Shown in pieces: positions 235 through 52,562 of a DNA stretch of 64,000 bases. The notes below the pieces were generated by a model. It was not told where the DNA came from. It searched no databases and saw only the letters and a list, made by a program, of their open reading frames with translations. Each line of letters starts with the position of its first letter. Positions within the stretch are counted from its first letter, which is position 1. Origin of the DNA: Heterohyrax brucei (Eukaryota > Chordata > Mammalia > Hyracoidea > Procaviidae); the NCBI GenBank assembly GCA_028571685.1, contig CM053156.1:87175049-87239048 (forward strand), read 5' to 3'. The position numbers and the translations under genes are program-made.

Positions 235-343
235 CTTAATTTGTAGGAATCTTTCAAAGAAGCAGTAAAGCAACAGCCCAGACCACTTGGATGGACACGG
301 AGGCCAGAGCCTTTGCGGTAATGGAATCAGCGCAAGTGCTGTT
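235..343 (-). pseudogene. PIEZO-like: PIEZO-like exon after the WAFG exon, frameshifted
   Basis: An excellent acceptor (CTTTCTCTTGCTCTACAG) precedes base 343 and a usable donor (AAG|GTGAAA) follows base 235. The previous exon ends in phase 0, and reading this one in phase 0 gives NSTCADSIT then a hydrophobic stretch VVWAVALLLL, matching the family's KHSAAADIT segment followed by a membrane helix. That frame then meets TGA. The second frame carries on with ERFLQIK, which resembles the family's DRALYLRK just before the exon end. The exon is 109 bases, about 14 shorter than the protein would need, so a frame-breaking deletion lies inside it. The splice sites look functional but the reading frame is not. 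Confidence 0.7.
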
Positions 344-573
344 CTGTAGAGCAAGAGAAAGACCACTCTATGCTATTAAGAAAGCCGGGGTCAGCCCTAC
401 CCTTGTTGACTGCCCAGTTATCAAGGCTAACTGATGGCCACGCACCTCCCTCCCCGCCAACATCAACAGACAGACTGCGTCTCCAAGAAACCGAAGTCTT
501 GGGTGGTGGCGATTCCCAGGAAAGCCAAAGAGCTGAGCTAGGCGATCTGGGCAGATGGTGGCCTGGAGGCTAC

Positions 574-721
574 CCCAAAGGCCCAGTACCCAAAGAGGAC
601 GATGGCAAAGCTCAGTGCCTCTACCAGGGCTGTGAGAGCATACACGTCGCACAATAGACTGGTCTCAGGATGGGTGAGGTTGTAGAAGAACTGGTGTATG
701 CGGTTGTAACTTTGGAGAATC
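574..721 (-). pseudogene. PIEZO-like: PIEZO-like exon ending in WAFG, frame intact
   Basis: The best-preserved exon of the locus. The acceptor CATCTCCCTTACAG lies just before base 721 and a GGG|GTAGCC donor follows base 574. The 148 bases stay open and encode QFFYNLTHPETS, DVYALTALVE and FAIVLFGYWAFG. PIEZO2 as I recall it has QFFYNLIHPEYS, DVYVLMFLAD and FIIIVFGFWAFG, giving about 23 identities in 40 ungapped residues; PIEZO1 is further away in the first block. In the family this is an inner transmembrane unit of the blade, close to the pore. Nothing in this exon alone shows loss of function, but its neighbour at 235-343 is broken. Confidence 0.88.
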
Positions 722-729
722 CTGTAAGG

Positions 730-1310
730 GAGATGGGGATGCTGTGGGCCAGCCCTCCCAGGGGGACCACCGATTATCCTTTGTCTCCAGCTGGAAGCTT
801 CTAGAAAGATGTCATGGCTAACCTCCCTGGTTGGACAAATGGGGAAGCTGAAGATAACATGTATGTTCATTTTCCCAGAACCAGTGTTTGCAAACAACAG
901 ACAGAAGCCCCTCTGGTGCTCAGGGACCAACCTTCAAGTGAATTCCCTTCTCTTCCACCACGATTACTACCTCCACTGAGGACTTGTTGTCCCTGGCCAG
1001 ATCTTATAGCTCAAACCCCACCATAAATTGTCCCGGTTGTGATCCAAGAGCAAGTCAGGTGCCGCCTGATCAAGAGCTCAGTGTGGCTGACAGAAAACCA
1101 TTCTCAACCCCTTCCTGTCTGACGTTGAGCAGGTCACTTTATTTCCAACCCCAGTCACCAGTAATCATTGCCAGAGTGATGAGCTCTGGTCTGGCTGCCA
1201 TGAGGTGGCTTCAAGGACGAAACATGGGAGCAAATGTGGCACAGCCCTGGACACGAGAAAGCATAGTGGACACGTTTGATTATCTGCAGTGTGGATGGAA
1301 TCCCGCAGGT
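730..1310. other. Anonymous intron-like sequence
   Basis: Lies upstream, in gene orientation, of the WAFG exon. No recognisable repeat or exon; open frames are short and unlike known families. Confidence 0.5.
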
Positions 1311-1830
1311 GAGCGGGTGGATGGTAGTTAGGGAAGAGAGTAGATAGACAGGTGGATGGCTGGGTGGGTGTGTAAGTGTGTGGGTGGTTAGACGGGTGGA
1401 AGGATGGTTGCACGGGTGAGTGAATGGTTGGATGGATGGATGGATGAGTGGATGGGTGGATGGATAAATGGACACATGGACAGATGGACAGATGGGTGGA
1501 TGGACAGATGGATGATAGGCAGATGGATGGATGGTGGGAGGGAAGGAAGGAGGGAGGTGGGACACATGGATAGATGAGTGGAAGGACAAATGGAAAGGTA
1601 GCTGGATCAAGAGAGAAAAGGATGGAAGGGCGCATGGGTGGGTGGATGGATGGATGGGCGGATCGACAGATGGACGGAAGAGTGGATGGGTGGGTGGGTG
1701 GATGGGTGGATGGTGGATAGCGGGAAAGAAGGGAGGAGGAATGGTAGAAGGGCTGGAGAGATGGGTGGGTGGACAAAAGGAAGAGTGGTTGGATCAGCAG
1801 ATGGATGGATGAAAGGTAAAGAGGAAGAAA
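1311..1830. repeat. Degenerate TGGA tetranucleotide array
   Basis: About 500 bases built from TGGA units with many GGTGGATGGATGG blocks and single-base variants such as CAGATGGA. The strongly biased frames on both strands (W, G, D repeats or H, P, S repeats) are artefacts of the array and not proteins. Confidence 0.95.
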
Positions 1831-3424
1831 GAAAGAATCAGAGAAGCATGCAGAGAAGGAAAGACGAAAGTTTGGGTAGTTACAAAGACAGGTAGGTGGA
1901 TTAGTGATTGGAAAGACAGACAGAAATTTCAGATATGGAACTCTGAAGTGTCTGATGCCTAAACAAAACACATGGTCTCCACTAGTCCCATAGCTGACGA
2001 GTGGCAGGTGAAGGGTGGGTGCAGTCACACTCTGCAGTAGCAGACTTGGCCCTGGAATCTCACCCAGGTGGTGCCCCTGTCTCAGGCCAGCTCCTGTCCC
2101 CGTGGTGAGCACTCCAGCGTCCTCCATCCTGAGGGCAAATGGCTCCACAGTGACTTGTCTGCGCTGGCCCCACCTGCAGCCAGAAGACTCTCTGAGAGGC
2201 GAGGGGAGGCTCCCGCCTCCGCGGCTTCCTCCTGGGCTCTCCGCTCCTGTGGCCCCTGAACGAGGTTCTCTTAATGACTGTCAGTGACCAGCTTCCTGTC
2301 TCTCTCAGCTGTTTCTGCAGTGTCCTTTCACTGACTCACTTTAGGCCCGATGGGAATTTCCTGAGCGTCCTCCATCTCCTCCTGGATCCTGGGTCTTGTG
2401 GACCCCCTGGTAAAGCACTAAGCCACAGCCTCTCCCCTTTTAGCTAGGCCCCTGATCCACTCCAGCTGGTTCCCGATCCCAACCCCCACTAGGCTAGTGG
2501 GGGCAGGATGCCACATGATTTCCGCCAGCATCTGGGCCCAGGTGGGGACTTGCTCTGTCATCTCCTCTGCCCCCAAGTCGCTGGTGCTAGACCCTGGGCT
2601 GGGAACAGGAAAGTCTGAAGGTTGGGAGGTTGGGAGCAGGCAAGGAGGCCTATGAATGGGGACAAGGAGGAAGTGTGAGGTGACCTGGTGACATCGACCA
2701 GCAAACTCCCTTCACAGCCCAAGAGTCGGGAGCCTCAGTGACCCACACTTTCCCAGGCTCTGCAGAGGTTTTGAAGCTCCTCCGTGCCCCACAGAGGGTA
2801 GGCCCAGGGCCTAGGCCAAGGGGTACATACAGCCCACCTCTGCCACCAACTCTGTACTTCCCCGTCCAGAAGGCCCAACAGTGGGCTGGCTGCAGCAGAG
2901 GGGGCTGCTGGGAGTTGGGGTCTGGCTCAGCCTGTGTCTCAAGGCAGCTCCGTCCTGCAGTCTCTCTGCTTTTCTTCTCAGCTTCCTTGAGCCTGGCTGG
3001 GCTGGCCCACAGCCCCCAGTCCTGGCATGGGCCGGCAGCAGTGAGCAGTAACAGAAGGCCTGCCCACCCCACCACACCACCCCATGCGACACATCCCTGC
3101 CCCAAAGTGAGCTGGAAGACAGAGAGGGGGAGTGGGGAAGAATGGGACCTGGAGTGTCCACGGAGCCGAGCCACTGTGGCACTGACTCTTGGCTGGTCCG
3201 TTGGCCAGCAGCAGATCTAGCCCTCTTCTAAACTGCCTTGGTCCAGGGCTCCCACAAAGCCAGACAAGGACAAGCTGGCCACAGGAAGGCCCTTGGGGTA
3301 TGACCAGGGTCTGAGGTAGGCAGCCTCACCCTACATCCCTAGCTGAAAGGCTGTTCATGTCAGTCCTGGGGTATCACTGGAACAGAGGCTGTACCCCATG
3401 TGAGTATGTGACGGCCAGCCAGTG
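1831..3424. other. Anonymous GC-rich intronic sequence
   Basis: Several overlapping open frames on both strands are expected from the GC content. I looked for the missing PIEZO segments here and found nothing I would defend. Confidence 0.45.
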
Positions 3425-3578
3425 TGTCAAAAGTGAGGATGTCACCTTGAAGACTAAAGTGCACCTGACCCAAGCCACGGTACTTTCAATCGTTTTCAAA
3501 TGCATGCAAAAGCTGGACTATGAACAAGGAAGACAGAAGGACTGATGGTGTTGGATTTGAATTGTGGTGTTGGAGAAG
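3425..3578 (+). mobile_element. RTE (BovB-type) LINE, first part of a split copy
   Basis: Matches the C-terminal part of the RTE polyprotein: DVTLKTKVHLTQATVLSIVF, then NKEDRRTDGVGFELWCW, with one frame change near 3540. The copy stops at GAGAAG (3573-3578) and resumes at 4590 with the same six bases. Confidence 0.88.
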
Positions 3579-4589
3579 TGCCAGGGGCCAGTCTCAACAG
3601 GGTCTGGGATCACGAAGGGATGGGCAGCATCAGCGAAGGAAAGAGACTCAGACAACCAGGAATCTGGAGGTCAGCAGCCCGTTAAGGCTTGTCTTTCTTT
3701 ATTTTCTATAAAATCAATGAGGTGACATGATTTCATCCTGCTCTTTGACCACATAAGCTGTTGGCTAGTAAGGAACTGATACCTCGTGGTCTCTTTTCAT
3801 GTTAATCATTAGGGCCTTCTAGGTAACGGCCTGAGACAAGTATATGGTGGTTATAATCAACAGTGAAAACAAAGCTATGCCTTGGGCTCAATCAACTCTA
3901 TCTATGCCTCCAGATTAAATGTGCAGGAAGAGGGGTAGATTCATCTAAAAGTTATGAGCTGGCTGTCTCTATTTGTTCCTTCTTTGTTCTTATTTTATCT
4001 CTTCCTGTGGGGACAGTAAAAGCCTACCATCCCCCACCCTATGCCTCTCTTAAGTTGTTCTAAGAAGTGTATTTTTTTAGTATTTGCCCACTTGCCATAC
4101 CAATTATAATAAATTTGGGAGCCTATCCATCTTCCTGATGCAGAGAGTGGGATGCCTGTATCTAAGGGCTGTGCAGGGGGTCATCCCTGGGGAGCTTCCC
4201 AGGGGCTTCCTGCAATCTTGTATTTCACATGTGGAGGGGGATGTGTGGTTAGGGAAGCCAGCGGGGCCAGGCCGACCTCGGCATTCCCGGGCTGGGCATG
4301 CTGTGTCGGGATTCATTCCTCCGAGCTCTTTTCTCTAGGAACTCCCATTCAGGTTTCCTCAACGTTATTTCATAAGCTGAGGGGGTTGTAAAGCCCCTCT
4401 TAGAAGGCACCTTCCTTAATCCTTGTGCCAGGAGATGAGAGGGTACTTTTGAGGAAGGTTTAATTAGGATGCAAAATATTATCAGGGAGAGTACAGCCAA
4501 AAATATGCCAAGAGTGAGATGCCTCTGCTCTCCATCACATAGGCATGTAGCTTTGCTACAGGGGCTTCTGTGGGTGATGGGCCTCAGCT
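3579..4589. mobile_element. 1011-bp insertion inside the RTE, possible solo LTR
   Basis: The segment begins TGCCAGGGGCC, ends GCCTCAGCT and is flanked by a six-base duplication, GAGAAG, that belongs once to the RTE sequence. It contains a TATAAA-like stretch near 3708 and AATAAA near 4108, and no coding frame I recognise. Length and duplication size fit a solo LTR of a class II-like endogenous retrovirus, but the right end lacks the usual CA and I do not recognise the family. Confidence 0.5.
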
Positions 4590-4935
4590 GAGAAGAATGT
4601 TGATGTACCCTAGGCTGCACAAAGAACAAACAGATCTGTTCCAGACTAAGTCCAACCAGTGTGCTCCTTGGAAGCCAAGATGGCGAGACTGCGTCTCACA
4701 TGCTTTGGACCTACTGTCAGGAGGGATCAGTCCCTGGAGAACGACATCAAGCTTGGCAGAGCAGTGGGTCAGTGAAAAAGAAGAAGACCCTCGATGAGAT
4801 GGATTGACACAGTGGCCACAGCAACGGGCTTAAGCATAGAAAAGATGGTGGACATGGTGCGAGACCAGGCAGTGTTTTGTTCTGTTGTTTGTGGGGTCAC
4901 CTCAAGTAGGAACTGACGTGATGGCACCTCACAAC
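4590..4935 (+). mobile_element. RTE LINE, second part to the 3' end
   Basis: Continues the copy at 3425 with the end of the RTE frame (MARLRLTY-like block, RRDQSLE-like block, GRP-x-x-RWID) and the short 3' tail GATGGCACCTCACAACA. The frame is decayed. Confidence 0.88.
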
Positions 4936-5392
4936 AAGTGGATGACTTTGTCAAAGAGAAGTTTATTCTCTCACAGCCCAGGAGGTTAAAAGTCCAACTT
5001 CAGGGCCACAGCTCCGGGGGAAGGCTTTCTGTCTGTCGGCTCTGCCATCTTTCCTTGGTATGGGAGGACCTCAGTGCAGGAACCTCACGTCCAAAGCATG
5101 TGTTCTGCTCCCAGGGCTGCTTTCTTGGTGATGTGAGGTCTTCATGTCTCTCTGCTGGCTTCTCTTTCATATCTCAAAATAGATTTTCTCCAGACCTTAT
5201 CCGATCTTGTAAACATCATCAACATAAATGCCACTAGTTCATCTTGCTTGATCATGGTGATAGAATTTACAACCCTTAAGGAAATGTCATCAGATAACTG
5301 AATGGGAGGCAATTGCACAATCGTAGGAATTGTGACCTAACCAACGTGATGGATATGGGGGGTGGGGGGACACCACTCAACCCGTGACACCT
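4936..5392 (+). repeat. Dispersed repeat family A, copy 1
   Basis: About 460 bases starting GAAGTTTATTCTCTCACAG and ending with ACACCACTCAACCCGTGACA. Similar copies lie at 11703, 28178 and 52922, always in plus orientation. It resembles a widespread mammalian interspersed repeat, but I cannot assign its class with confidence. Confidence 0.75.
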
Positions 5393-5552
5393 TCTTCTCA
5401 ATTCCAGGAAGGCAGAGCAGCGAGAATGGTTTGGCCCCGGGGAGGCCGATGTGTCACTTGTCAAATCCAAACTGCCAAGAATAACTGACTGTGACAGTTG
5501 CCTGAGGAGGAGAAGTGAGAGGCAAAGGCATTAGAGTCTGATGGAGACACAC
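5393..5552. other. Short anonymous spacer
   Basis: No feature seen. Confidence 0.4.
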
Positions 5553-5780
5553 ACAGCACACACAACCAGTGTACACACACACACACGTATCACACATGTA
5601 CACACAACTCACAAATGTATGTAAACACAACACACACACACATGTGTACACTGAGGTACGTACACACATAACATACCCATGTATAGACACATGCACACTC
5701 ACACACCATGCACACACGTGTCACCCACATACACATGTACAAACATGTGCGCACACACACACACAAACAAACACACCCCT
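5553..5780. repeat. Degenerate CA dinucleotide repeat
   Basis: Runs of ACACAC broken by ACGTAT, ATGTAC and similar interruptions over about 230 bases; an old microsatellite. The C and V rich frames on the minus strand come from it. Confidence 0.95.
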
Positions 5781-6426
5781 GTAATGAGCGAATGTCCAGG
5801 AGGGGCTGATGAGCTCCCAGCGACTGTCCTGGTGGTCAGCAGAGGCCAGAGATGAAACAGGAATAAGCCGTGAGGAGCCACGGTGAACCCAGCAGCTGGT
5901 CCCCTCTGACACTGCTGGAGGCCAGAGAGCCTTTCTCAGCATCTGCGAGTGACCGTCTCTGTTCTGATCCCTCGTAACATCTGTCACCTGCTGAATCACG
6001 TTGACACGTGGCCAGCAGGTGAACGTGGCTCTCCCCGCCCGCCAGCTCTCACCAGCAAATCACTGGGGTGGGGATTTTAGAGATTGTCTTATTAGACTAA
6101 AAATGCTCAAGAATGGCTTTTTTCCCTTTGGCAAGAGGAACAGGTCAGCCAAAATTCCCATCCTTCTATCACTGAGAGCTGTTGAGGGACCGGGGGAGGT
6201 GCCACCACCATCCATCAAGGAAGTGAGGGCCAGTATGTGGTGCAGGGCTTCTGCCTTGTTGGTGGGTGACCTACAGGGAGAGCTGGGTGCTCCCACCTCC
6301 AGGCTTCTGAAAGCCCAGTTTCCCCAGCCACATGCAGTCCTCAGGCAGTGCAAATGTCCCACCTGTCAACCATGCTCAGCTGCCAGCTGGAAGGTGGGCA
6401 GTTCATGTGCCCAGAGGCACCTTGGA

Positions 6427-6545
6427 AGGGAGGCCCAGTGATCTACTTCTGAAAAATCAGCCACTGGGGAGTATGGTCCTGCCCTGACCCACCTTGGGGT
6501 CACCGTGAGGCAGAATCAACACTACAGCCACTGGTTTTGTCTCAG
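6427..6545 (+). mobile_element. AfroSINE-related fragment
   Basis: Contains the GTGATCTACTTCTGAAAAAT block typical of the longer AfroSINE variant, followed by a decayed GGGGTCACCGTGAGGCAGAA end. Confidence 0.55.
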
Positions 6546-6979
6546 CCAGCTAGACCACCTCAGGTCCCATGGGGTCCCCAAGGGGCTGACTGCTCACACT
6601 CCTGGTTGTAGGCCACAGAGGGAGTTTGGCCACAGAGACACAGCCTGGATGGGAGGAAGCAGAGAGGCAGCCTACTGTCCCCAAGGAGGAGGGTCCACCT
6701 TTTGTTTGGTGGCTTCACAGATGTCAGCAGTACTGGCAGCTGGAGACATGGAGCTGATGGACAGAGAATCCCCTGGTGGGAGGTCAGAGCTCGGGTCTCA
6801 CTGTCAGCTCTGCCTGACATGCAGCCCGTCTTAACCTCCCTGAGGGGGGTTGGACTCACTGGCCTTTAAAGCACCTTCTTGTTTGACTGTCTGTCCAGAC
6901 TAGGTCCGACTAGGAAGAAAAGCCCACATATCTACTTCCAAAGATGAGGCAATGAAAGCCCCATGGACCACTGTGGTCT

Positions 6980-7085
6980 AGTCGTAACTGATTATGGCAA
7001 TTGTGCAGGCTGGACACAGTTTTGTTCCACAGTGCATGGGGTCACCATGTGTCAGGAGCCGACTGGACAGGAGCCAACATTACCG
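6980..7085 (+). mobile_element. RTE LINE 3' end fragment
   Basis: Carries the RTE tail signature: GGACACAGTTTTGTTCCA, GCATGGGGTCACCATG and GGAGCCGACTGGACAGG. Severely 5' truncated. Confidence 0.7.
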
Positions 7086-7439
7086 CCAACACTATCTTTA
7101 ACACTGGTCAGTCCCTACTGGGAAGGAGAGTCAGCTCCCTGGGTACCTGTCCTCCCATGGCAGCTGGGCCGTGTAGATAGTAGGGAACCCAGCCCACATC
7201 ATGACTTCACCAATTCCTTGGCAGTGACAAGCTCCAGTACAGGTGTCTGTGGTCTGCCTGCATGAAGTATGGCTCCTGATACGAGGTGGGCCATCAAAAC
7301 CTGCTCTGCAGTGGGTAGCGGGAGCTACCGAGGTCACGCTAAGGAAGACAAACAGGTTTCACCCTGACAACACACTCGGATCCAGTGAGAGTTGAGAACA
7401 GTTCCGAGGCTGTAACTGGGTCCATGGAGAAGATAGTTT

Positions 7440-7692
7440 GGGTGGATTAGTGATGTCTGCCATGGGCACTGAGCTGGGTGGATTAGTGATGTCTGTCGTA
7501 GACACTGAATGGGTAGATTAGTAATGTCTGCCACAGGCACTGAGCTGGGTGGATTTGTAACATCTGCCATAGGCAATGAGCTGAGTGGATCAGTAACGTC
7601 TGTCATGGACACTAAGCTGGGTGGATTAGTAACGTCTGCCATAGGCACTGAGCTGGATGAATTAGTAATGTCTGTTGTGAACACTAAGCTAG
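7440..7692 (+). repeat. 36-bp minisatellite, seven copies
   Basis: Seven units of 36 bases (one of 35) beginning GGGTGGATTAGTGATGTCTG and ending GCACTGAGCT. Because the unit is a multiple of three, the array gives a 12-residue repeating open frame on the plus strand; this is a by-product of period and not evidence of a protein. Confidence 0.95.
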
Positions 7693-7969
7693 GAAGACGT
7701 CACATCCATTGCAGTGTTTTCACATCTTGGTACCAAAACAATGTCCAGGAACAGGGCAGCAGGAGAACTGGACTCTAGTCAAGGACTTCAGGCATGTCCT
7801 TTTAGGCCCAGAGCCTCCTCTTCTTGTAATCTGGAGATAAGGTTTGGATTCCCTTCCATGTAGAGTTTTCTTGAGATTCAGGGGGATTAGGGAGCTAGCT
7901 AGACTCTAGACAAAACTCTTCAGTTGTGAGATGGTATTAACTAAAAGTGGGAGTTACAGGAATGCTTTT

Positions 7970-8620
7970 CTTTCTTTTAATTTTTGTATTGTGATTAAGT
8001 GGAAGTTTATCATCCAAGTCAATTTGCCCTGTAAAACCCTGAGTACCCACCTCTCTGCAGCTCCATCTGCTCCCCTCGCACTGTGACAGCACACTCATAC
8101 TTTCCACTCTTTATTTCCAGTGTCCACTCAACCAACATCTGTTCCCTCTCCTCCATCCTCTCCTCTTCCCTCTAAAAAGAAACCAGTTGGACAGCCTCAT
8201 ATGAATATTAAACCCTAAAATATACACACTAGATGCAGCATTCCATGTCCCCAAGTCCAGTCCACTCTTAGTCTCAAGTGTTGCCTTCAGTACTGGTTTC
8301 AGCTCTGGGCTAGCCGCAAGTCTAGGGGCCATGTTCTCAGGGGACCCTCTGAGTTATTAGATCATCAGTTCTGGTCTTTTAACAGAGTTCTTGATTTATA
8401 CACCCCTTTTTTTCATGCTTCATCAGGGACTCTACATTGTATCCCCGTAAGGTCTGTCTTTGGTGGTGGCCAGGCACCATCTAGTTCCTCTGGTCTCATG
8501 CCAATGTAGTCTCCCAATCCTATGGGTCCTTCTGTCTCCTGGCCTCATTTTTCTTCATGTCTTTGGTGTTCTTCGTGTCTTCTGTTCCATGATCAATTAA
8601 TGTAGGATTACAGGAATTCA
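7970..8620 (-). mobile_element. Dispersed repeat family B, copy 1
   Basis: Shares a long stretch with 60965-61640: an AT-rich start (TTGTATTGTGATTAAGTGGA), the AGCTCCATCTGCTC block, CCAAGTCCAGTCCA and GGGCACCATCTAGTTC-type blocks. The T-rich left end suggests a retroposon whose poly-A end points left. It may be an L1 3' untranslated region or an unassigned afrotherian element. Confidence 0.7.
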
Positions 8621-8711
8621 TTTCAGGAAATTCTAGTTTTAGGACACTCAGACATAAGCAGTAAACCAAATTAAGCCTGCTCCATTTATAATTAGGAGGA
8701 GCTACTTAAGT

Positions 8712-8823
8712 GCGATGGTGCCCTGGTGCCACAAATAGTTAAAAGCCTGGCTGCTAACAGGAGATTTAACCCACCCCAGGGGTTTCACGGGAGAAAGACC
8801 TGATGATCTGCTCCTACAAAGAT
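8712..8823 (+). mobile_element. Truncated AfroSINE
   Basis: Shows the tRNA-related head (GTGCCCTGGTGCCACA, AGCCTGGCTGCTAACAG) and the GAAAGACCTGATGATCTGC block, then ends where the antisense RTE begins. Confidence 0.65.
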
Positions 8824-9395
8824 TGTTGTTGTCGTCAGGTGCGTCTAGTGGGTTCTGATTCCTAACGACGCTGTGCACAACAGAACGAAACATTGTGATT
8901 GCACCACGTCCATAATCGTTTTTATGCTTAAGCCCATCGCTGCAGCCACTGCGTCAATTCATCTCATTGAGGGCCTTCCTCTTCTTCACTGACCCTCCAC
9001 TCTACCAAGCATATGCCCTTCTTCAGGAATTGATCCCTCCTGACAACACATCCAAGGTATGTAAGACACAGTCTCGTCATCTTTGCTTCCAAGAAGTACT
9101 CTGGTCGTACTTCTTCCAGAACAGATATATCTGTTCTTCTGATGGTCCATTGTACGTTCATTATTCTTCTCCAGCACTGTAATTCAAAGGCGTCAGTTCT
9201 TCTTCAGTCTTCTTAATTCACTGCCCAGCTTATGCATATGATGAGATTGAAAATAACTGTGGCTTGGGTCAGGCACACCTTAGCTTTCAAGGTGACATCT
9301 TTACTTTTCAATGATTTGAAGAGGTCCTTTGCAGTAGATTTTCCCAATGCAATGCCTCTTTTGATTTCTTGACTGCTGCTTCCATAAAGATTACA
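8824..9395 (-). mobile_element. RTE LINE fragment
   Basis: Starts at the RTE 3' end on the minus strand (TTGTTGTTGTCGTCAGGTG, CAACAGAACGAAACATTG) and reads back into the C-terminal coding part, up to the DFF-like and SSQEIKRGIALGKSTAKDL blocks of the RTE reverse-transcriptase tail. Frame broken. Confidence 0.88.
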
Positions 9396-42884: not shown

Positions 42885-43090
42885 GAATAATTAATCTCCC
42901 TGTTGGTACAGCAGCTGCTCCCTGGCCTCCATTTTGGCTGAGTTGTTTAATTTTCATTTCCGCTAACAGCCCGTCTTTAATGTTACCTCTCTCCCGATTT
43001 ATCTTGGGCTTCCCAAGCTGCCACAGAAACCTCTCTAGGCAAAACAGTAAAAGTGAATGACCCTTCCGAGCCAGCCCCGCTCTTCTAATA
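42885..43090. other. Candidate conserved non-coding block
   Basis: Repeat-free, with ATAATTAATCTCCCTGTTGG, GTTTAATTTTCATTTCCGC and TTTAATGTTACCTCTCTCCC. The style suggests regulatory DNA; unproven. Confidence 0.25.
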
Positions 43091-45020
43091 TATAACTTGG
43101 CCACCAAGCCAATTACTTAACGTGACGTTCCATGGGAAGGGCTGGGATGCTGAGCATACTGAGTGGGTGCCAGCCATGGGCCAGGCCTTGAGCTGGGCAC
43201 TTCATCTCACTAATCCTTCCTGGCCCATGTGTCCTGGAGGTCTGCAACGTTTTACTGATATTCTGCATGACAGCCCCAAGCATTACCTGGTCCTACCTGC
43301 AGCCAGAGCAGCACCTGGTACACAGCACTTCCTCAGTGCTCCTTGCTGAGTGTCTGGGCCACGGGCTGAAGGTCAAGGATCAACGGTCCCACGAGCTCAG
43401 CTGGGAGATGCAGCTCACTTCCTTGCCACACCTGATGAGGGGAAACGTGGTGTCCACAGTGGTGCTGCCACCCCATCTGTCACCCTGCCCCCAGCCTGAC
43501 CCTAGTGCCCAGGCAGCACTCTAGGCAGGTCCCTTGGTCTAGCTAAGCCTCAGTTTCCCCATCTGTAAAAGAACAAACTGGATCAGAAGGCCCTTCCTCT
43601 TTCCTTTTGGCGAGTCCTTGAGGACGGGTGACTGTCCCTCCTCCCAGGCTTCTTTCCTGATACCTGACAGTCCACCCTCCCCCCAGGGGCCTCCCCAGGT
43701 AGACGCAGCCTATCACGGCCAGTGACCCATGTCCTGTTCCCAGACTCCTGCCTCCAAGAAGCCACAACCTCAAGAGTCCCCTCCCCACCCTACAGGGCCT
43801 GACAGTGGTCAAGGTTTTCAATGCGAGATGACATCTGCCTCTCCAGCCCCTCCCTTCGTCCTCACCTTCCATTCCCCGTCTCCCCACTTCCCTCATCCCT
43901 CACCCCTGGCTCTGCACCTCCCCCACCCCCACTCCCACTCTTGGCCACCTCCCTCCTCCTGTGTCCTCTCGGAAGGCTGGGCCAGGATCCCCTCCTTGCC
44001 TTCTTGCAGCAGCAAGGGGTCTGGAGCTGAGGACTTGCCCTCGCTTCACCTCGGGGCTGCTGTGCTTGCCACTCGTCTTCCTGGCGTGCTCTTCCCTACG
44101 GACCCACTGCCCTTCACATGCCCTGCACAGGTGATACCCTCCTCCCCACCCCTGCACCCCCACTTACCTGGCACCCTCTGATCCCCTTCCCTTTCAGCCG
44201 TCTCCACTGCCTGGCCCACCACCTTCCACTACAGCGTCTCTGCTGACTTGTGTCTGTCTGTCTGTCCCTTTAGGATGTCCATTCCAAGAGGACAGATCTC
44301 ATTCTTGTCTGGGTGCCTTCCTGTGTCCCTTACACCCGTAACCAAACCCTAGTGTCTGGCCTAGAACAGGCACCCAGAAACACTTGTTGAATGAATGTGC
44401 CCACAAGGTCTTCAGCCCCAGCCGTTCTGGGGCCACCTTTAAACGGATGCCCTTGGGGTCTGTCCCATTACTTGTGTTTGCACAGTCATGGGAGAGCCCT
44501 CCCTTGAACAAATTTTATCAGGGCAGACTCTGGTAGGAGAGGTTCAGGTCCTACCTCCCTCAAAGATCCCCCCACGGGGTCAGGAGACGAGCTGGTCTGG
44601 AACCGAGCGCACCTCTGAGCAGCTGGGGGAGTGGGGCAAGGGCTCGAGGCACTTCAACTGGTGCATCATTTTGCAGGTGACTCTCAGGGACACCCAGGGG
44701 CGAAAATGCAGGATGCCCACGGGGGTGACTCCGCACAGGGCAGCCCAGGGAGAGCATCAGAGAAACCTACAGCAGGACTGGCGTGGGGGGTGGGGGGCCT
44801 TGGCTTGGTTTCTCTTCCCTGACTGCGGCCAGAGCAGCCAGCTCCTCAGAGTGCCACAGTCAGGTTGGCCCCGGCGCACGGTGTCCCAGCGTGCGGACAG
44901 CCTAGTCCTGTGCCTGCCCCGGGGGCCTGCTCAGGACCACTGTCATCTATCGGGTCACCACTGTCTGATTTTCAGAACGAAATTGCCAGGCCTTGCCTCT
45001 GCCCGGGGAATCCTGATTCC
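43091..45020. other. Anonymous GC-rich sequence
   Basis: A short ancient MIR or L2-like tail (CAGAAACACTTGTTGAATGA) sits near 44370. Otherwise no feature recognised despite long open frames. Confidence 0.4.
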
Positions 45021-45024
45021 CATC

Positions 45025-45218
45025 ACAGCACCGTGGGCACCTCCTCTGACAGTGGGGCGGGGCTAGGCCACACGACAGCACCGTGGGCACCTCCTCTGAC
45101 AGTGGGGCGGGCCTATGGCCATGTCACAGCACCGTGGGCGCCTCCGCCGACAGAGGGCCGGGGCTATGGCACCTCACGGCACCGTGGACGCCGCTGCCAA
45201 CGGAGGGCGGTGGCCGTG
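45025..45218 (+). repeat. 50-bp GC-rich minisatellite, four copies
   Basis: Units start at about 45025, 45075, 45126 and 45176 with ACAGCACCGTGGGCACCTCC, followed by a GGGGCGGG box. The last unit is the most diverged. Confidence 0.9.
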
Positions 45219-45784
45219 CTCGAGGTGCGGCAGTCAGGACGGAACCTGCTCCTCCCACATGGGCGGTGAGGACCCACCGCTGAACCATCACTGGTCACAA
45301 GGCAGAACAGGAGCTAACCGTCCGCTCACCAGACCATCCGTCAGAACTCGTCTCTGGGCCAAAGGACAGGAGAACAGTTCTCAAACCGGGACTCTACATC
45401 TCTAAAACCAGAGCGTACACGGGGCTCCCAAAAGGACACCAGCCTCCTGGAGCAGGAGTTGGGTGAGCACGGCGGATGCTGGCTTCGTGGTGCGTATTTC
45501 CAGAGGCCGCCACAGAAGCACTCGAGTTCCAGAAGCTTCCAAACACCAGAAGCAAGCTTGTTGCGTACCATGCCGCAGTCACCCACGTCCTCAGAGGGGA
45601 ACAGAAAGGTCCTAACGGGCTACTCAGGTTGCTGGTGACCTGCTGGTCTGGTTCCTTCCAGTCACAGTACAAAGTGCCTGTGTTCCCCTCCTCACTGTCT
45701 CAATGTTGTCATGTCGCCCTCTGTGATAACAGGGTTCTCATGTGTTCAGTGATCTGTAAATACCTCTGCTTCTCTCTCTAGACC

Positions 45785-46095
45785 AGGGATTGGCAACCCG
45801 TTTCTGTGAAAGGCCAGATAGTAAGTATTTTGGACTGAGCAGACCAAAGAGCCTCTAGCACAGCTCTTCCAGTCCCTCTGTGTGTGGACACAGCCACAGA
45901 CAATATAGAAATGCATGTGGCTTCATCTGCCGAAACAGGAGAGCTGGAGACACACATCACTGACCCCCTGGTCCAGATGTTGCCCTTCTTGAAGAGAGAG
46001 GCAATACTTAGCTCCCTGAACTTCCAAGGCTTAGCACAGCACACGGCACCCTGAGGCAGTGACAACCACGGACACACAAGACAACACAAAACCAC
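45785..46095. mobile_element. Ancient hAT-type MER element
   Basis: GGGATTGGCAACCCGTTTCT, GAAAGGCCAGATAGTAAGTA and TTTTGGACT follow the order of a widespread mammalian non-autonomous hAT repeat. Exact subfamily not assigned. Confidence 0.55.
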
Positions 46096-47900
46096 ACCAA
46101 CTGCCCTGGAGAAACGGAACGTGAATCACTGCTCAAAGGAATTCTATCTGCATTTGCTGTTCTTAATGATGGAGAAAGACTGTAATTTCATAAAATGAAA
46201 GAGGCTGCCAGCTAGTCGGGACTCAGAACCAGGCAGGCATCTTCGTTCGTATTTCAGTCCCCACCACAGCTGAGGGAAATATCACCCGCTCTGGAATCAC
46301 CCATAGGCAGTTCTCCAAGTGAGCAAACAGACTGCAGATATCTCTGTCACTCTTCATCCCCAAGCTCTGTTTTTGTTGAAAGCACGGTGGCAACAGTCAA
46401 CCCAGCAGCTGTGGGAATGGCTGTAGAATTCTAAACTCGCAGGTCCAACAAACTCAAACTTGTGCCCCATCTGCCATGGAAATACAGACGTGGCGGCTGA
46501 GGCAGGGACGGCCAGGGGACAGGATGTCACCTCCTCCTCGCCAGGTCAGTGGGCTGTCCCCTCTTTGCATGTCACCTCAACTAGAACGTAGGGAGATGGG
46601 GTCCCAGCAGTGCTGAATCAGTGCACCAACCTTGAAGGATTTTCCTTTTCTTTTAAAGATTTTTCTTGAAATGAATTAACTGTTTGCCTGAGCCTCCAGA
46701 CTTCTGGGTCACACCACAGGGCCACCAGACAGTACCACACAGTGTGCCTTGGGAGAAAGCAGCATTCCTACCTTTCTGGGACCGCCCAGCCCTCACCCCA
46801 CCCCCCACCTGCCTCCATGGCTCACCCTCCACACCACCACTTGCTTTCGGCTGGGTTCCCCGTGTTCCCCAACTGGGTCCTAGAGGAAAATCAAAGGCAG
46901 GGTACTGTTAGGCATTTGAAGGTAGAGAACTGAATGTTGACTTGCTATCCTGTTTTATCAAATCTCATCCAAACTACTGGCTAGTGTTAGTAGGAGACAC
47001 GGTCCATGATTTGGTCCTTAAAAAAGAAGAAAGTTTGATTTGGTTTCATTTGCAGTGTTGGAAACTCCACCAATACTTTTCTTACATTCCCCAGGGAACC
47101 ATTAACTCCAGAAATCAAGGTGGAAGCATGCATTTTTTTCATTATTTAGTTCTTGCCTCTTCCCAAGTGTCCAAATTGTATCCTTAAGCCTGAGAACAAT
47201 ATAGTGGAGGGAGGAAGAGAAAGGGGGAAAGAGAGAGGCAGGAAGAGAATGAGAGAGCCTGTTTCTAAAAGTCTTCATTTTCCATTGGATTTATTTAACA
47301 TTTTAGATTTTTTTACATTTTATTCATTTATTATGTGGATGGGAAAATGCAGACTCATGGTGAAAAAGAATAATTCAAAAGCTATGAGATGTCTACAGTG
47401 AGAAGAGTCTCCTTCCCATCTTTGTCTCTAGCCCCTAGACTAAGCCTCATCACAGGTTTCTTCTGTTTTCTTCCAAAGGTAGGCCGTGTTTGGACAAGCA
47501 TGGGCATAGCTACATATCTTCCTCAACAAAGAGTCGCAGACTCTGCACGGCAATCTGCACCTTCCTCCACTCGGCAGTGCATCTTGGAGCTCGCTCTCTA
47601 TCTGTGCAGAGACAACAGCTTCATCCTTCACACTGGCTGCAGAGCACCAGGCTGCAGAAGCACAGCGTAATTTGTTTAATCAGGGCCCTTGTCATGGGCA
47701 TTTAGTCCCTGCTGGAGTTTTTCAAAGAACGAGATTAACACTCAAGCGAACAGACTCACAGCCACTGAGCAAGGTGAGATGTTACCACCGTGCCCAGTGC
47801 AGGGCTGTGGCTCTCAGAGGAGAGCCCCCTTGAAAAAGGGATAGTGAAGAGGAGAGACTCACGTCTGTAGAGGCTGCACACATATTCCCACCACCATGTT
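46096..47900. other. Anonymous sequence with a GA-rich patch
   Basis: Near 47205-47255 there is a GGAAGAGAAAGGGGGAAAGA stretch; no gene or repeat family recognised elsewhere. Confidence 0.4.
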
Positions 47901-47918
47901 GCTGGGGTGCATATCCCA

Positions 47919-47919
<1 letters not shown>

Positions 47920-47977
<58 letters not shown>
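47920..47977. repeat. GT dinucleotide microsatellite
   Basis: About 28 uninterrupted GT units, so probably length-variable between individuals. Confidence 0.98.
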
Positions 47978-47978
<1 letters not shown>

Positions 47979-47989
47979 GAAATGCAGCA

Positions 47990-49990
47990 ACAGCTGGTGT
48001 TTACATATGCCCCAATGCTGGCTGGGTTTCTAAACATGGTCACCCTCCTTCATACCATTGAAACCACAGGTCCACTGAAAACCGCACCCCTTCCCACCAT
48101 TCACAGGTCAGTCCCTGCGGGCCCAGGCCCTCATAGGGGATAGTCTCCCCAGCCTTCCTTCCCTTCTCCAGCAGGCCTCACATTTCTGCTTGTTATTGCA
48201 GGGGATGGGGGAAAGAATGCACCCTCATCCGCCTGGCTTCCTGCATCCCCAGAGACCCAACCATCTCACCTCCCCCCTCTCCCTTCTGCTCCCAACCCCA
48301 CTGTAAGTAAGAACAAGGCAGGCTAGAAACCAAAGCCAAATGACACCTTGTTGACAAGAAAGACTATTCTGTAACCCCTGGGGAAAAAGAGACTTTGGGT
48401 GCACTTTCTCATACACAGTGCTACGGCTCTTGCTCACTTTGCTCAGAAAAACAGATTCGAGCACTCAGCCTACAGCCTGCAGCTTAATTTTTCTTCGTAA
48501 GAAAATGAATTGCTTTGGCAATGTACCACCTTTGGAAATGAGAATTCTGCGAAATACTCTAGCATATTAGTGACTCAGTCTGAAAATTAAAAAACCTTTA
48601 AAAGCCAAGTTTCATGGCCAGCTTCTTAATTTAGTTAAAGCACAGAATGGTAAAAACAAAAATAAAACCAATCCTTAAGCACCCACCAAGCAGACGGCTT
48701 GGCATTTCAGGGCATCTCAGAGGTCGTCCATGCCAACCACATCCCAGCTCCCTCACAGGGGGCACAGGATGACTGTGATCCTGCCAACAGAGACTCTGGG
48801 CAGGAAATAAATGTCCCCTGTCCTGTCTGCTCACCCCGCAAAGACGCAGGAGGCGGCAGCTTCGCCACCAATGTCCCGAGCATGCTCACAAATGGATGAC
48901 TCAGAAGATGGAAAGCAAATCTAATTCCCGTCTCCTGAGCCGAACCCGTCTTGGAGTCTATTAGCAGAGTGTCCTGGTGCCACCCGGGGACAGCAGTACC
49001 TGTCAGACAAGCCTTGGCACTTAATAGGGGTCGCACATAGGCGGGTGGTCTTCAGGAAATCATCATCACAGTGGAAAAGCTGAAGGACATGCGCCAGCAT
49101 CGAGGCGGCCGGATCTCCGCGGATAGCTTCCCTGGGTTGGGCAATGCCAGGCCCATGGTCCAGCCTGGAGCAGGGACCCCCCACTGGGCAAAACTATCTG
49201 CCTTGGGAAGACTACCACCCTTTTTCCAGATAACCAAACAGCACTGGGGTCCAGCCCCCGAGACTGTATGGTCTCCACAAGCACCCACCCTCACCTGGAG
49301 TCTGGGTGGTACCATTTTGGACTCCCACACAGTTCCCCGACAGGTGGGCTCAGGTATTTGAGAAAGCCTAGGATTCTCAGAGTCAGGAACTCAGAAGGAA
49401 CCACAGAGAACATACCTTTTTTGGCACAAACTGAGTCTTGCAGCTGAAATCGGATTGGGGGGGACAAGCTGTGAAGAGGGTTCTGGAAAAGTTTGCAGGA
49501 GGCCACGGAGAGGTGAAAGGCAGACCAGTGGGTGTTAGCATTCTGGGGCTCCAGGGACTCACAGAGTGTGTGCTATCTGGCCACAAGGTCTTGATGAGGT
49601 CAAGCCATGTGCTACCCTCTCCTTGCACTGAGCCACTCGGACCTTGAAGCCATTGCCACTGGGAGAAATGTCTCCAAGAGCCCTGAGAAACCAGGAACTC
49701 TGCAGAAGCACCCAGGAATGGGACAGAACCAACAAGCAGCAGCCTTCCACACACTTGTCCTAAGGCGGGGGGCTTCTTCATTCCCCAGGTTGCCAAGTCT
49801 GTCATGGCAACCACTTTGGCAAACCCAGGTCTCTGTAAATAACCCCTTTAGGGTTCTACAAGGTTCTACTTAGGAGTCCATGGGGCTAGTTTAGTCTGAT
49901 GCTTGCCTCCCCTGGCCCCAGAGCCCAGTAATTCTGGCAAAACTGGGGACTTCTAGCAAATACCACCAAGCTGCAGATCCCCACTGGCCC
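47990..49990. other. Anonymous sequence
   Basis: Expected to hold the highly conserved middle-blade exons of the PIEZO-like gene, but none could be recognised; they may be deleted, decayed or further left. Confidence 0.4.
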
Positions 49991-49994
49991 ACCC

Positions 49995-50134
49995 CTCTTC
50001 AGAGAGTCCCAGGGTTTGGTTGAAAAGTCCAAAACCAGTGTGAAGCCAGAAGGGTAGACAGCAATAAGGACTTCCATGGAGTAAGGGATCCCCACCACCC
50101 AGCACTTCAGGGTCTTTCTCCAGTGGCAGAGTCT
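49995..50134 (-). pseudogene. PIEZO-like: PIEZO-like exon with HWRKTLK..VLIAVY
   Basis: The acceptor TGTGGCTGCATTGCAG precedes 50134. The open frame reads RLCHWRKTLKCWVVG, PYSMEVLIAVYPSGF and LDFSTKPWDSL. PIEZO1 has SLWRKLLKAFWWLVV, AYTMLVLIAVYTFQF and QDFPAYWRNL. The W-R-K, L-K and VLIAVY positions align almost without gaps. No stop or shift is visible until past the matching part. The donor is unclear. This is an early blade helix, consistent with the exons just to the right encoding the segment before it. Confidence 0.82.
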
Positions 50135-51685
50135 CTGCAATGCAGCCACAACCCCGAGAACATGTACAGAAGCTTATTAGGGGAATGGGCAGATGGTGGT
50201 GACCGACAGGAGCCCCGAAACCCAGAGAGCCAGTCACGGGTTCAGAAGCCCCCTCTCTCACCCCATCACATGTAGAACGATGCCTTCCCACAGAGTCTTG
50301 GCTGGCTGGAGTCTAGACTCCTTCTCATAGGGCCATCTAAACAACTTTTTAGAAAACAGGAAAGGAAGTCCAGGGGGCTTCATGCCGGGGGCTGAGTGGC
50401 CTTCAGGAAACCCAAACTGGAAGCAGGGATGGATTCCACGCAAGGCTCATGCAGCCTCGCAGCTGCTTCCTTCCTGATTTGTAGCGCACGGTTCACTGCT
50501 TTATCCAAGGTGTGGTGGAATCGTGCCTTAGGGACTGCAGATTAGGAAGGAAACACTACTAGGCTGGTGTCAGCCATGTTGCCTGTAACTCCACACACAC
50601 GGGTTCACGCACCCTGGCTGGGAGCCTGGCGATGACCACCTCAGAAGCCTGTGAGCAGCCAGGTTAGGAGTCCTGTCTGTTTATTGAACAATCTGGGAGG
50701 TATTGGAAATTGATCTTCCTCTCTCCCACACACGCACCGTCTCCTGATGGCCCATGATGCAGGGTTATCTGAAGGCAATGGTCGCTGCGTCCAGCAGCAG
50801 ACAGAGCTGGGCGGCTGTATTGATCCACACAGATGGACTCTCTCCTGCGGCCACTCTCCGCACACCCACGAGGAGACAGCCGACCCCGTGCTGGCCAGCA
50901 CCTGGGCCCCTGGGGAGCCGATGGGTTAGGGCAGACAGCTCGCCGCTCCCTGGCCCACCTGGGTCTGTGCTTTCCCCAGCTCTGGGGCCTGTGGTGCCAG
51001 CGGGAAAAACACGGGTGGCTGGCCCAGGTGCACAGGGCTGCCCAGCCCACCTCCTCGGCCTCCAAACTCTGCTGGTCCCCAGGGTGCAAAATCCAACTGA
51101 GGCCCGAGGCTTGGCCTCACAGGACAGGACACCAAGTGCTGGCCTTTTACCTCAGTAGAGCTTCCTTGTCCCTTGGTGGTACTGCTTCTGTCACAAGACA
51201 GCGGTGTTCGAAAGAACTGTCTGCGGAATCCAGTCGTCCGCAGCAACCCGTCAGGTGAAAGAGGAGGCCGGGGTGGGTAGGAAGTTCTGACGGTGAGGGA
51301 GGAGCGACTTAGGAAACGAGGGCGAGGACAGCCACACAACCTGAAGAATGTCATCACTGTCACTGACTTGCTCATACAGGAAGGGTTGATGTTCTGCTGT
51401 GTATGTTCCGAACAACTCAAAAAGAAAGAAAGGCAGCGATCTGCCCCATGCACTCCTGGTGGCTTTAGCCTGGTTGGAGACCCAGGCCCTCACTGAGTAG
51501 CAGGTGTGTCAGGAGTCCGAGGAGCCACCACTGGGGACACCGCAGCGCCAAGGTCGCTCTGTCTGCACGGAAGGCAGGCCTGCGGGCAGCGGGCAGGGTT
51601 GCTTGCAGCTGCACAGGGTCTCCCGGTGTAGGCCCCCGGGGCGGGAAGAGGGGCATGCAGGCCAGCTGGGACACTTCCACCTCAC

Positions 51686-51795
51686 CAGTGAAGCTGACGA
51701 AGCAGAACAGAACCCCGCAGACGTAGAGCTGGTACTTGACCAGCAGGCCCCAGAGGAAGGAGCCCTGGAGCTCCAAACACAGTGTTTGGACAAAG
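51686..51795 (-). pseudogene. PIEZO-like: PIEZO-like exon with VKYQLYVCGVLF
   Basis: A pyrimidine-rich acceptor ending TACTGAG precedes 51795 and a consensus-like donor ACTG|GTGAGG follows 51686. The frame reads FVQTLCLELQGSF then LLVKYQLYVCGVLFCFVSFT. The family has a QTLL start in PIEZO1 and VKYWIYVCGGMFFFVSFEG in PIEZO2. Beyond the donor the same frame continues EVEVSQLACMPLF, which lines up position by position with KIVMYKIIYMVLF, so the exon may really be longer and the GTGAGG a coincidence. No disruption is visible. Confidence 0.82.
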
Positions 51796-52044
51796 CTCAG
51801 TACGCGGGAGGAGCCCCTGCCCCTACCTAGGGTGCCTCACTGGACAAGGGGTTGCCCCTGAATTACCTGGGACACTACCTTGATCCCAGCCAGGGAAGGC
51901 AGGTTGGATGTAGTGAACATGTCCCTAGATTTGCCCTACGGCTCTGAGGTTCCCGGGAAGATGAGTGGGGGCTCAATGAGGCATGTAACGGCCCCGCTGA
52001 TGTGGGCAGGTGGCAGCGGTGGGTCTTAGGATGGCTGCCGGGTC

Positions 52045-52261
52045 CTCGTTCTGGAGCCCGGCCCTCAGCTCTGCCAGTGCCTGCCTCTCCAGTACCTGCT
52101 GCCACAGCAGCACCCACAGCAGCGGCGGGAAGAGCTCTGCAGTGAGACTCACGTGACTGTCACAGGACAGGCAGAAGCCCCCTCGTCGCTGACGCTGGAG
52201 GATACAGCATGCTCCCATCATTCTGGGAGGACCTGTCTTCTGGAGGTGGAGCTGCAGTGGC
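52045..52261 (-). pseudogene. PIEZO-like: PIEZO-like exon with LQKTG..LWVLLWQQVLE
   Basis: A strong acceptor (CTGACATCCTTTCTCCAG) precedes 52261. The frame gives LHLQKTG, ILQRQRRGGFCLS and LLWVLLWQQVLERQAL. PIEZO2 as recalled has ELPKTIG, LQRYKDTCLDL and TFWLILRQHLTEQKAL. The middle is a few residues longer than in the family. The frame stays open to about 51970, but I see no clear donor after the matching part. Together with the segment to its right, the junction gives Y-x-x-x-x-x-L-x-x-x-L-x-K-T in exact family spacing. Confidence 0.72.
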
Positions 52262-52325
52262 CTGGAGAAAGGATGTCAGGGGAAAGCAAGGGACGTGATC
52301 GTCCCTATTCTGGCACATGCCTGAC

Positions 52326-52365
52326 CTGCGTCCCCTGTACCTCACCCTACAAGGCCCCAAGTGTC
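52326..52365 (-). pseudogene. End of a preceding PIEZO-like exon (CRVRYRGR)
   Basis: The frame HLGPCRVRYRGR ends at a CAG|GTCAGG donor after base 52326. The family has LLCGLQYVWAM here. Splicing the last two bases to the acceptor before 52261 restores the family spacing between the Y and the downstream K-T pair exactly. The implied intron is only 64 bases. Further upstream the frame has a TGA, so either the exon start is close or it is broken. Short, so support is mainly positional. Confidence 0.45.
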
Positions 52366-52562
52366 AGAGCATGGGGGCCAGTGAAGGTGATCCCACCATC
52401 TTGCAGAGGAGGAAGTTGACTCCCACACAGGTCCCCAGGTCCCCAGCCCCCACCCCTCCTGCTCTTCACACCCCTGTGACCAGCCTGCAGTTGCCACCCC
52501 TTCTGGAACAAGAAGCTCCTTGGCTCCTGGCCCTGAAAGCCTTCCCAGAGCCCCGTTCCCTC

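Follow-up and report, generated by a model that had tools for sequence, protein, structure and literature searches.

Work on mammalian touch, proprioception and cell volume is based on two PIEZO genes. A 64,000-nt stretch of contig C17 of Heterohyrax brucei (the window) carries PIEZO-like segments, which a first-pass annotation took for the vestige of a third vertebrate PIEZO that had survived into the mammalian or afrotherian line and then decayed. A tail motif of an afrotherian SINE matches 4 times with at most 4 mismatches, and a second motif, taken from the middle of that SINE, has 0 matches even with 6 allowed; from the sequence, an afrotherian host is plausible. Do these segments (the relic) descend from PIEZO1, from PIEZO2, or from a gene that mammals no longer possess?

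The translated search proposed in that annotation, with mouse PIEZO1 and PIEZO2 as tblastn queries, gave at E <1 only minus-strand matches, all in PIEZO order from 51,788 to 574 (best E 4.7e-13 and 8.9e-11); reversed PIEZO proteins, used as a control, gave no match in the window better than E 2.5. Pfam scans of 15-kb read-through frames (positions 1 to about 15,000, in two minus-strand frames out of three) returned no family, though one frame contains E10, because long queries swamp short exons; a single whole-protein profile gave only four matches >8 bits in the window, and single window ORFs were all below cut-off for PF24874 and PF24871. Exon-by-exon profiles were used in place of the read-through scans and the whole-protein profile. 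Across 244 kb and both strands, 10 of 47 exon profiles scored highest where collinearity would put them (12.9 to 51.1 bits), out-of-place top matches of the remaining profiles reached 11.3 and 10.7 bits, and 34 profiles were left without a usable piece. The ten matched exons, all minus-strand and collinear with PIEZO, extend over 76 kb, or 85 kb with three weaker pieces (Table 1). The top ordered minus-strand chain scored 298.7 bits (46 profiles), compared with 38.0 bits on the plus strand, 46.8 and 48.5 bits in reversed sequence, and 34.6 to 68.4 bits in block shuffles (six shuffles, two strands, 12 scans, 46 profiles). As the top single match in the shuffle chains reached 15.1 bits, the two weakest of the ten exons (E6, 13.4 bits; E7, 12.9 bits) would be unconvincing alone; both are backed by tblastn. 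One match in the 244 kb was out of order (PIEZO1 2329-2361 at 148,944-148,846, E 0.017).

The locus is a member of the PIEZO family, as gene or pseudogene, with collinear homology to multiple parts of the protein. Neither of two outcomes that would have spoken against the first-pass annotation, better non-PIEZO matches or a breakdown of order, was found: the segments are PIEZO by tblastn, phmmer and PF15917, and the chain lies far above all controls. The span given there, 235..52370, needs revision at both ends, with no PIEZO exon found between 574 and 235 or between 51,788 and 52,370 (52,134-52,054 match only at tblastn E 3.5), and the gene outruns the window.

Table 1 Recognised pieces of the PIEZO relic, in 5′ to 3′ order of the gene (window coordinates unless stated).
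Feature	Position	Strand	Evidence and remarks
Relic span in window	1..64000	-	gene runs past both window ends
Whole relic, most 5′ to most 3′ recognised piece	C17:87,164,496-87,249,274 (window coordinates -10,552 to 74,226)	-	~85 kb; exon order and chain score
E1	74,226-74,104, beyond window (L015:104-226)	-	E 1.3e-8; frame open, splice sites kept
E2, like PIEZO2 676-719	51645..51788	-	tblastn E 5.0e-5; profile 23.2 bits
E3, like PIEZO2 about 733-760	50042..50125	-	profile 15.5 bits; tblastn E 0.21 to PIEZO1
E4, like PIEZO1 844-883	44613..44708	-	profile 18.5 bits; tblastn E 0.031
E5, like PIEZO2 1141-1210	38455..38664	-	tblastn E 4.7e-13; profile 46.4 bits
E6, like PIEZO2 1211-1248	36981..37086	-	tblastn E 0.062; profile 13.4 bits
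E7, like PIEZO2 1239-1294	35762..35914	-	tblastn E 1.7e-4; profile 12.9 bits
E8, like PIEZO2 1301-1380	29043..29285	-	PF15917 45.9 bits (match covers 28,941-29,285; stretch below 29,043 reads past donor); profile 25.0 bits
E9, like PIEZO1 1691-1724, two frames	10368..10474	-	profile 7.9 and 7.1 bits; tblastn E 0.36; weak alone, placed by order
E10, like PIEZO2 2233-2282	574..723	-	tblastn E 8.9e-11; profile 51.1 bits; PDB phmmer E 8e-11 to PIEZO2
E11	-525 to -741, beyond window (L013:9368-9475 and 9259-9291)	-	noise-level score alone
E12	-1,655 to -1,795, beyond window (L013:8205-8345)	-	E 2.4e-4
E13 (probably)	-10,466 to -10,552, beyond window (L012:9448-9534)	-	E 0.10; noise-level score alone

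Among the best candidates scored in whole-genome scans, PF15917 identified three loci, PIEZO1, PIEZO2 and the relic, the window piece being well above the curated cut-off of 27 bits and the remaining nine matches all belonging to PIEZO1 and PIEZO2. Scans with PF12166 and PF24874 found nothing on C17, which counts against a third PIEZO gene. No intact copy of the relic gene was identified with these three families among the best candidates scored, PIEZO1 and PIEZO2 being the only other PIEZO loci, and the relic is a unitary pseudogene. A candidate fourth locus on C6 (PF24874, 27.6 bits, or 28.2 bits with neighbours) was judged a chance match; the C6 DNA matched PIEZO1 and PIEZO2 no better than E 0.23, and the fly protein at E 0.037. 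A PF24874 match on C27 (22.4 bits) lies below cut-off.

On C17 the relic is found among STX16, NPEPL1, mir-296, NESP55, XLas and GNAS, and the order APCDD1L-STX16-NPEPL1-relic-GNAS mirrors APCDD1-PIEZO2-(GNAL) on C13 of the same genome. On each contig an APCDD1-like gene flanks PIEZO on its far side, in differing orientation relative to PIEZO, and the C13 G-alpha gene has a GNAS-type exon break and is head to head with PIEZO2. Besides that orientation, the distances speak against the parallel: ~1.9 Mb from the G-alpha gene to the PIEZO2 exons found on C13, and ~60 kb from the first relic exon found to NESP55 on C17. The relic neighbours (APCDD1-like, Gs-type) are paralogous to those of PIEZO2, and this mirrored neighbourhood supports a duplicate of early-vertebrate age and an original mammalian set that was probably of three PIEZO genes, not two.

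Over the 13 pieces, 254 of 586 residues are identical to mouse PIEZO2 and 234 of 582 to mouse PIEZO1, and the best blocks reach about half, the figure that the first-pass annotation gave for PIEZO2. In a tree of six sequences, without non-mammalian vertebrates and on pieces selected by us, the best topology makes the relic sister to PIEZO2, and the AU test does not separate sister-to-PIEZO1, sister-to-PIEZO2 and outside-both. A decayed, neutrally drifted duplicate of mammalian PIEZO2 would fit the greater identity to PIEZO2 and the best tree, and nesting within mammalian PIEZO2 is not rejected by the conservative SH test (0.17 to 0.26), although the AU test does reject it (0.005 to 0.018). Neutral decay predicts equal retention at all PIEZO2 positions, whereas the relic retains 194 of 351 residues at which PIEZO1 and PIEZO2 agree and only 58 of the 231 PIEZO2 residues at which they differ (Fisher, 4e-13); the ten strong exons alone give 153/277 shared and 49/191 PIEZO2-specific. 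Simulated neutral decay of PIEZO2 kept ~0.5 of PIEZO2-specific residues and matched PIEZO1-specific ones at 0.05; the relic has 0.25 and 0.17, respectively (the latter being 40/231). Moreover, the genes around the relic are paralogs of those around PIEZO2, and PIEZO2 itself is not next to it. A PIEZO2 duplicate is consequently improbable. By site pattern and AU test the relic branches outside mammalian PIEZO1 and PIEZO2, with SH allowing PIEZO2 nesting; grouping inside either gene, the outcome named beforehand as contrary to a third paralog, is thus not what AU supports.

The relic gene is dead. Frames are broken in three exons, and in-frame stops, lost splice sites and unrecognisable exons add to these. 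Lesions (stops, broken frames, lost splice sites) are spread over E5, E6, E7, E8, E9, E11 and E12: E5 has one in-frame stop and has kept its acceptor AG and lost its donor GT; E6 is in two parts in broken frame, with the acceptor AG kept; E7 has one in-frame stop and its acceptor AG; and E8 has a stop inside and another in the final codon ahead of the donor, with the donor GT kept and the acceptor AG lost. E10 has an open frame with both AG and GT. AG is present at 6/7 acceptors and GT at 5/7 donors examined (11/14 sites), and relic exon borders, where compared, equal those of the host PIEZO1 (E1, E5, E6, E7, E8, E11, and the donors of E10 and E12). A retrocopy is ruled out, as the exons lie apart with AG/GT kept. 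No open reading frame runs through pore and cap, as a working channel would need. Judged from the sequence, a third PIEZO still partly expressed, perhaps through a short protein or RNA made from intact exons, might be read into the open frames and kept splice sites of E1 and E10, a third-position GC of 0.69 in recognised codons (0.487 for the window) and only three stops in 566 codons; with seven exons damaged and 34 of 47 profiles lacking a usable piece, it is very unlikely.

Three stops in 566 codons put neutral change after the loss of frame at ~0.05 substitutions per site (95% 0.011 to 0.150). This estimate comes from the best-preserved pieces, in frames picked by similarity, and the extra stop that ends E8 falls just beyond the codons counted. 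All-neutral divergence from PIEZO2 would need roughly 0.2 to 0.3 substitutions per site, and the lower estimate for frame loss hints at fast evolution before death.

Descent from PIEZO1, as the name of the human pseudogene PIEZO1P2 would have it, agrees with PIEZO1 identities not far below those to PIEZO2. The relic matches PIEZO1 at only 40 of the 231 differing positions, against 194/351 shared (Fisher, 7e-21; 29/191 in the ten strong exons), and nesting in mammalian PIEZO1 is rejected by both AU (3.7e-6 or less) and SH (0.0004 or less); site pattern and both tests rule out a PIEZO1 copy, which retains hardly any credibility. Chance likeness of hydrophobic helices, to which E9, E11 and E13 would be open at their noise-level scores, is effectively dismissed by a chain of 298.7 bits against at most 68.4 in controls and by AG/GT at the exon borders.

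The relic is thus very probably what remains of a third vertebrate PIEZO, ohnologous to PIEZO1 and PIEZO2 and now a unitary pseudogene. An ancestral block of APCDD1, PIEZO and a Gs-type G-alpha gene would have been duplicated when early vertebrate genomes doubled (2R), presumably giving rise to APCDD1-PIEZO2-GNAL and APCDD1L-PIEZO3-GNAS. The third gene would have encoded a PIEZO-type force-gated cation channel that diverged further from the other PIEZOs and later lost frames and exons, and from these losses it presumably makes no channel now; if the locus retains a role, it would act as DNA within the GNAS domain and not as a channel. Somewhat favoured is a wider history: early vertebrates had a third PIEZO mechanosensor beside GNAS, its frame remained open until well after mammals arose, more than one placental line then lost the gene, and it survives in other vertebrates under PIEZO1-like or PIEZO2-like names.

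A dead third PIEZO in a mammal makes the two-gene state a loss. The interval from NPEPL1 to GNAS is the exact place in which to seek living copies in other vertebrates, and a mammal bearing the relic is a natural knock-out for comparison with them. A literature search, with subscription papers and preprints largely outside its scope and some sources available in part, turned up no description of a third PIEZO in vertebrates that mammals have lost.

Of the known PIEZO genes, PIEZO2 is the closest relative of the relic by identity and best tree, and has similar exon content; on C13 most of its Pfam matches are stop-free inside, and the relic departs from it at most PIEZO2-specific positions. PIEZO1 is compact and lies on C22, where exons covering most of its length were found; its exon borders equal those of the relic where compared, and the relic does not group with it. 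In a published human gene list the order is NPEPL1, PIEZO1P2, MIR296, GNAS-AS1, GNAS, which puts the annotated pseudogene PIEZO1P2 (20q13.32) at the same place as the relic, under the name of a gene from which the relic does not derive. By place and name, we infer that PIEZO1P2 is the orthologous relic. The third paralog of the first-pass annotation stands, by AU and synteny, and confinement of the relic to an afrotherian line is improbable; with PIEZO1P2 between NPEPL1 and MIR296/GNAS, the relic is probably common to placentals and the human name misleading. A SNP upstream of PIEZO1P2 has led to its proposal as a target of obesity-related research (PMC6437195); the present comparison suggests that a dead third paralog next to GNAS describes this pseudogene better than a copy of PIEZO1 does. 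In zebrafish, piezo1b is described as a second piezo1 ortholog (PMC10094979) and is not among the three piezo genes counted elsewhere (PMC10801085); as a vertebrate PIEZO beyond piezo1, piezo2a and piezo2b, it might, speculatively, be a living counterpart of the relic.

The minus strand of the window carries PIEZO exons of a broken gene (hereafter the relic). In tblastn of mouse PIEZO1 and PIEZO2 against the window (CpG observed/expected 0.28), all matches with E <1 follow PIEZO order, and the reversed proteins gave a best E of only 2.5. With one window ORF as phmmer query against PDB, 15 PIEZO chains (best 8e-11) rank above one unrelated chain. Both strands of the window plus 180 kb flanks (244 kb) were scanned with 47 exon profiles of PIEZO1, PIEZO2 and, for part of them, fly, with boundaries set by exon matches of the host's own PIEZO1. 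Ten profiles (the strong exons) are matched best where collinearity puts them (12.9 to 51.1 bits); the other profiles have out-of-place best matches of up to 11.3 and 10.7 bits. Using 46 profiles (one short overlapping profile left out), the top ordered minus-strand chain has 15 matches, five at noise level singly, and scores 298.7 bits, versus 38.0 on the plus strand, 46.8 and 48.5 in reversed sequence and 34.6 to 68.4 in block shuffles (six shuffles, two strands; top single match 15.1 bits). The collinearity claimed in the first-pass annotation is therefore upheld. A single match in the enlarged region, within the XLas part (E 0.017), does not follow PIEZO order, and we regard it as chance.

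The relic reaches beyond both window ends (tblastn, window plus flanks), with 13 recognised pieces (E1-E13, 5' to 3'). Among the borders examined, AG is present at 6 of 7 acceptors and GT at 5 of 7 donors; 11 of these 14 sites were compared with the host PIEZO1 border (all except the acceptors of E10 and E12 and the donor of E13). The relic is therefore a gene decayed in place, and a retrocopy is ruled out. Three in-frame stops occur in 566 recognised codons, with another at the last codon of E8, and a Pfam match over E8, extending past its donor, contains six. Frames are broken in E6, E9 and E11, splice sites are lost in E5, E8 and E12, and 34 of the 47 profiles, including the conserved last exon, lack a usable piece in the 244-kb scan. 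Because of these lesions the relic is unable to make a channel. In its current state the locus most likely yields no protein. A His-Pro-Ser/Thr repeat pattern dominates minus-frame ORFs at 1155-2000, which suggests that one of the relic's introns holds short units repeated in tandem. ORFs at 13668-14485 (+) and 54396-54914 (-) resemble, by eye, fragments of L1 ORF2 and an RTE-type reverse transcriptase, respectively.

Host PIEZO1 and PIEZO2 (genome 3.49 Gb, 62 contigs) lie on contigs C22 and C13, the relic on C17, where the window spans 87,175,049-87,239,048. Among the best-scoring candidates of whole-genome Pfam scans, all five PF12166 matches are on C22 or C13 and none on C17; nine of ten PF15917 matches are on C13 or C22 and the tenth is the relic; and 10 of 12 PF24874 matches are on C13 or C22, with none on C17. 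PF24874 also has one match below cut-off on C27 and a marginal one with two stops on C6 (L034, the stretch C6:73,416,601-73,418,000), the latter probably chance, as its DNA matches PIEZO1 or PIEZO2 no better than E 0.23.

Across the 13 aligned pieces, the two mouse paralogs have the same residue at 351 sites, of which the relic retains 194; at sites that distinguish the paralogs, it has the PIEZO2 residue at 58/231 and the PIEZO1 residue at 40/231 (Fisher, shared versus paralog-specific retention, 4e-13 for PIEZO2 and 7e-21 for PIEZO1). In simulations, PIEZO2 decaying neutrally to the relic's level keeps ~0.5 of PIEZO2-specific residues and matches ~0.05 of PIEZO1-specific ones; PIEZO1 decay gives the mirror image. 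Fly-shared residues are best retained (87/141 where fly, PIEZO1 and PIEZO2 agree), and at sites shared by PIEZO1 and PIEZO2 but not fly the vertebrate residue is found at 73/159 and the fly residue at 13/159. In the strong exons the counts are 153/277 shared, 49/191 PIEZO2-specific and 29/191 PIEZO1-specific. The preference for PIEZO2 is weak (p 0.085 for all pieces, 0.03 for strong exons). By its residue pattern the relic is a vertebrate PIEZO that branched close to where PIEZO1 and PIEZO2 parted and stayed under selection for a long time.

In the main tree tests (593 columns, JTT+G4), the best topology places the relic as sister to PIEZO2 (AU 0.85), with sister to PIEZO1 (AU 0.25) and outside both (AU 0.10) not excluded by AU. 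A recent duplicate of PIEZO2, nested with the human or mouse gene, is excluded under AU (0.005) and KH (0.008), though SH (0.17) does not reject it; with strong exons (JTT and LG), AU is 0.0125 to 0.018 and SH 0.25 to 0.26, so the separation from PIEZO2 stands by AU and not by SH. Placing the relic inside PIEZO1, with the host or the mouse gene, fails every test (strong exons, AU 3.7e-6 or less).

Relic pieces and gene neighbourhoods (window-coordinates unless a contig is named; values below 1 or above 64,000 are flanks)
Feature	Position	Strand	Support
APCDD1-like gene	C17:86.83-86.84 Mb		49 and 54% identity to human APCDD1
STX16	-56.9 to -51.8 kb	+	protein query
NPEPL1	-28.6 to -12.4 kb	+	protein query
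Relic	74.2 to -10.6 kb	-	
Weaker relic piece	-10,466 to -10,552	-	E 0.10
PIEZO2 2354-2408-like piece	-1,655 to -1,795	-	E 2.4e-4
Weaker relic piece	-525 to -741	-	E 0.10
PIEZO2 2233-2282-like piece	window	-	tblastn E 8.9e-11
PIEZO2 1239-1294-like piece	window	-	tblastn E 1.7e-4
PIEZO2 1141-1210-like piece	window	-	tblastn E 4.7e-13 (strongest)
PIEZO2 676-719-like piece	window	-	tblastn E 5.0e-5
PIEZO2 266-306-like piece	74,226-74,104	-	E 1.3e-8
mir-296 precursor	105,373-105,451 (flank stretch L018:1373-1451)	-	Rfam RF00733, 91.9 bits
NESP55	133.0 kb	+	protein query
XLas	146.0 kb	+	protein query
GNAS G-alpha exons	about 200 kb	+	protein query
APCDD1	C13:14.13-14.15 Mb		85 to 92% identity to human APCDD1
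PIEZO2 exons found	C13:13.68-13.78 Mb	+	
G-alpha gene	C13:11.69-11.82 Mb	-	

The GNAS domain adjoins the window (STX16, NPEPL1, NESP55, XLas and GNAS located with protein queries). The APCDD1-like gene on C17 is taken for APCDD1L, and the C13 G-alpha gene for GNAL, since among 67 G-alpha matches only it and GNAS have an exon start at model position 246; the latter assignment agrees with human gene order. On both contigs PIEZO faces the G-alpha gene head to head (gap about 1.9 Mb on C13 versus about 60 kb on C17). Past the PIEZO 3' end, at 0.32 to 0.35 Mb, each contig has its APCDD1-like gene, whose orientation relative to PIEZO differs between C13 and C17. Early vertebrate genome duplications leave paralogous neighbours around paralogous genes, which is the pattern around the relic and PIEZO2.

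The relic is very probably a third PIEZO ohnolog. Its ancestral product, by homology, would most likely have been a large trimer with a cation pore opening under membrane tension, like PIEZO1 and PIEZO2. That a third PIEZO still lives in other vertebrates is somewhat favoured. Zebrafish papers disagree on piezo1b: one describes two orthologs of piezo1, named piezo1a and piezo1b (PMC10094979), whereas another counts piezo1, piezo2a and piezo2b only (PMC10801085). That piezo1b may be a living counterpart is a lead rather than a result.

In human, the gene table for a chr20 deletion in a clinical paper runs NPEPL1, PIEZO1P2, MIR296, MIR298, GNAS-AS1, GNAS, on to EDN3 and PIEZO1P1 (PMC10178786). 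Its order is non-alphabetical and is taken here as positional; PIEZO1P2 then has the relic's place, and mir-296 sits between relic and GNAS as in that list. In a parent-of-origin methylation study, SNP rs6100212 is placed 5' of pseudogene PIEZO1P2, which the authors propose, together with its regulatory regions, as a subject for research on obesity (PMC6437195). PIEZO1P2 is very probably the same relic, with orthology by position and name only, and if so the signal of that study is more likely to stem from the GNAS domain.
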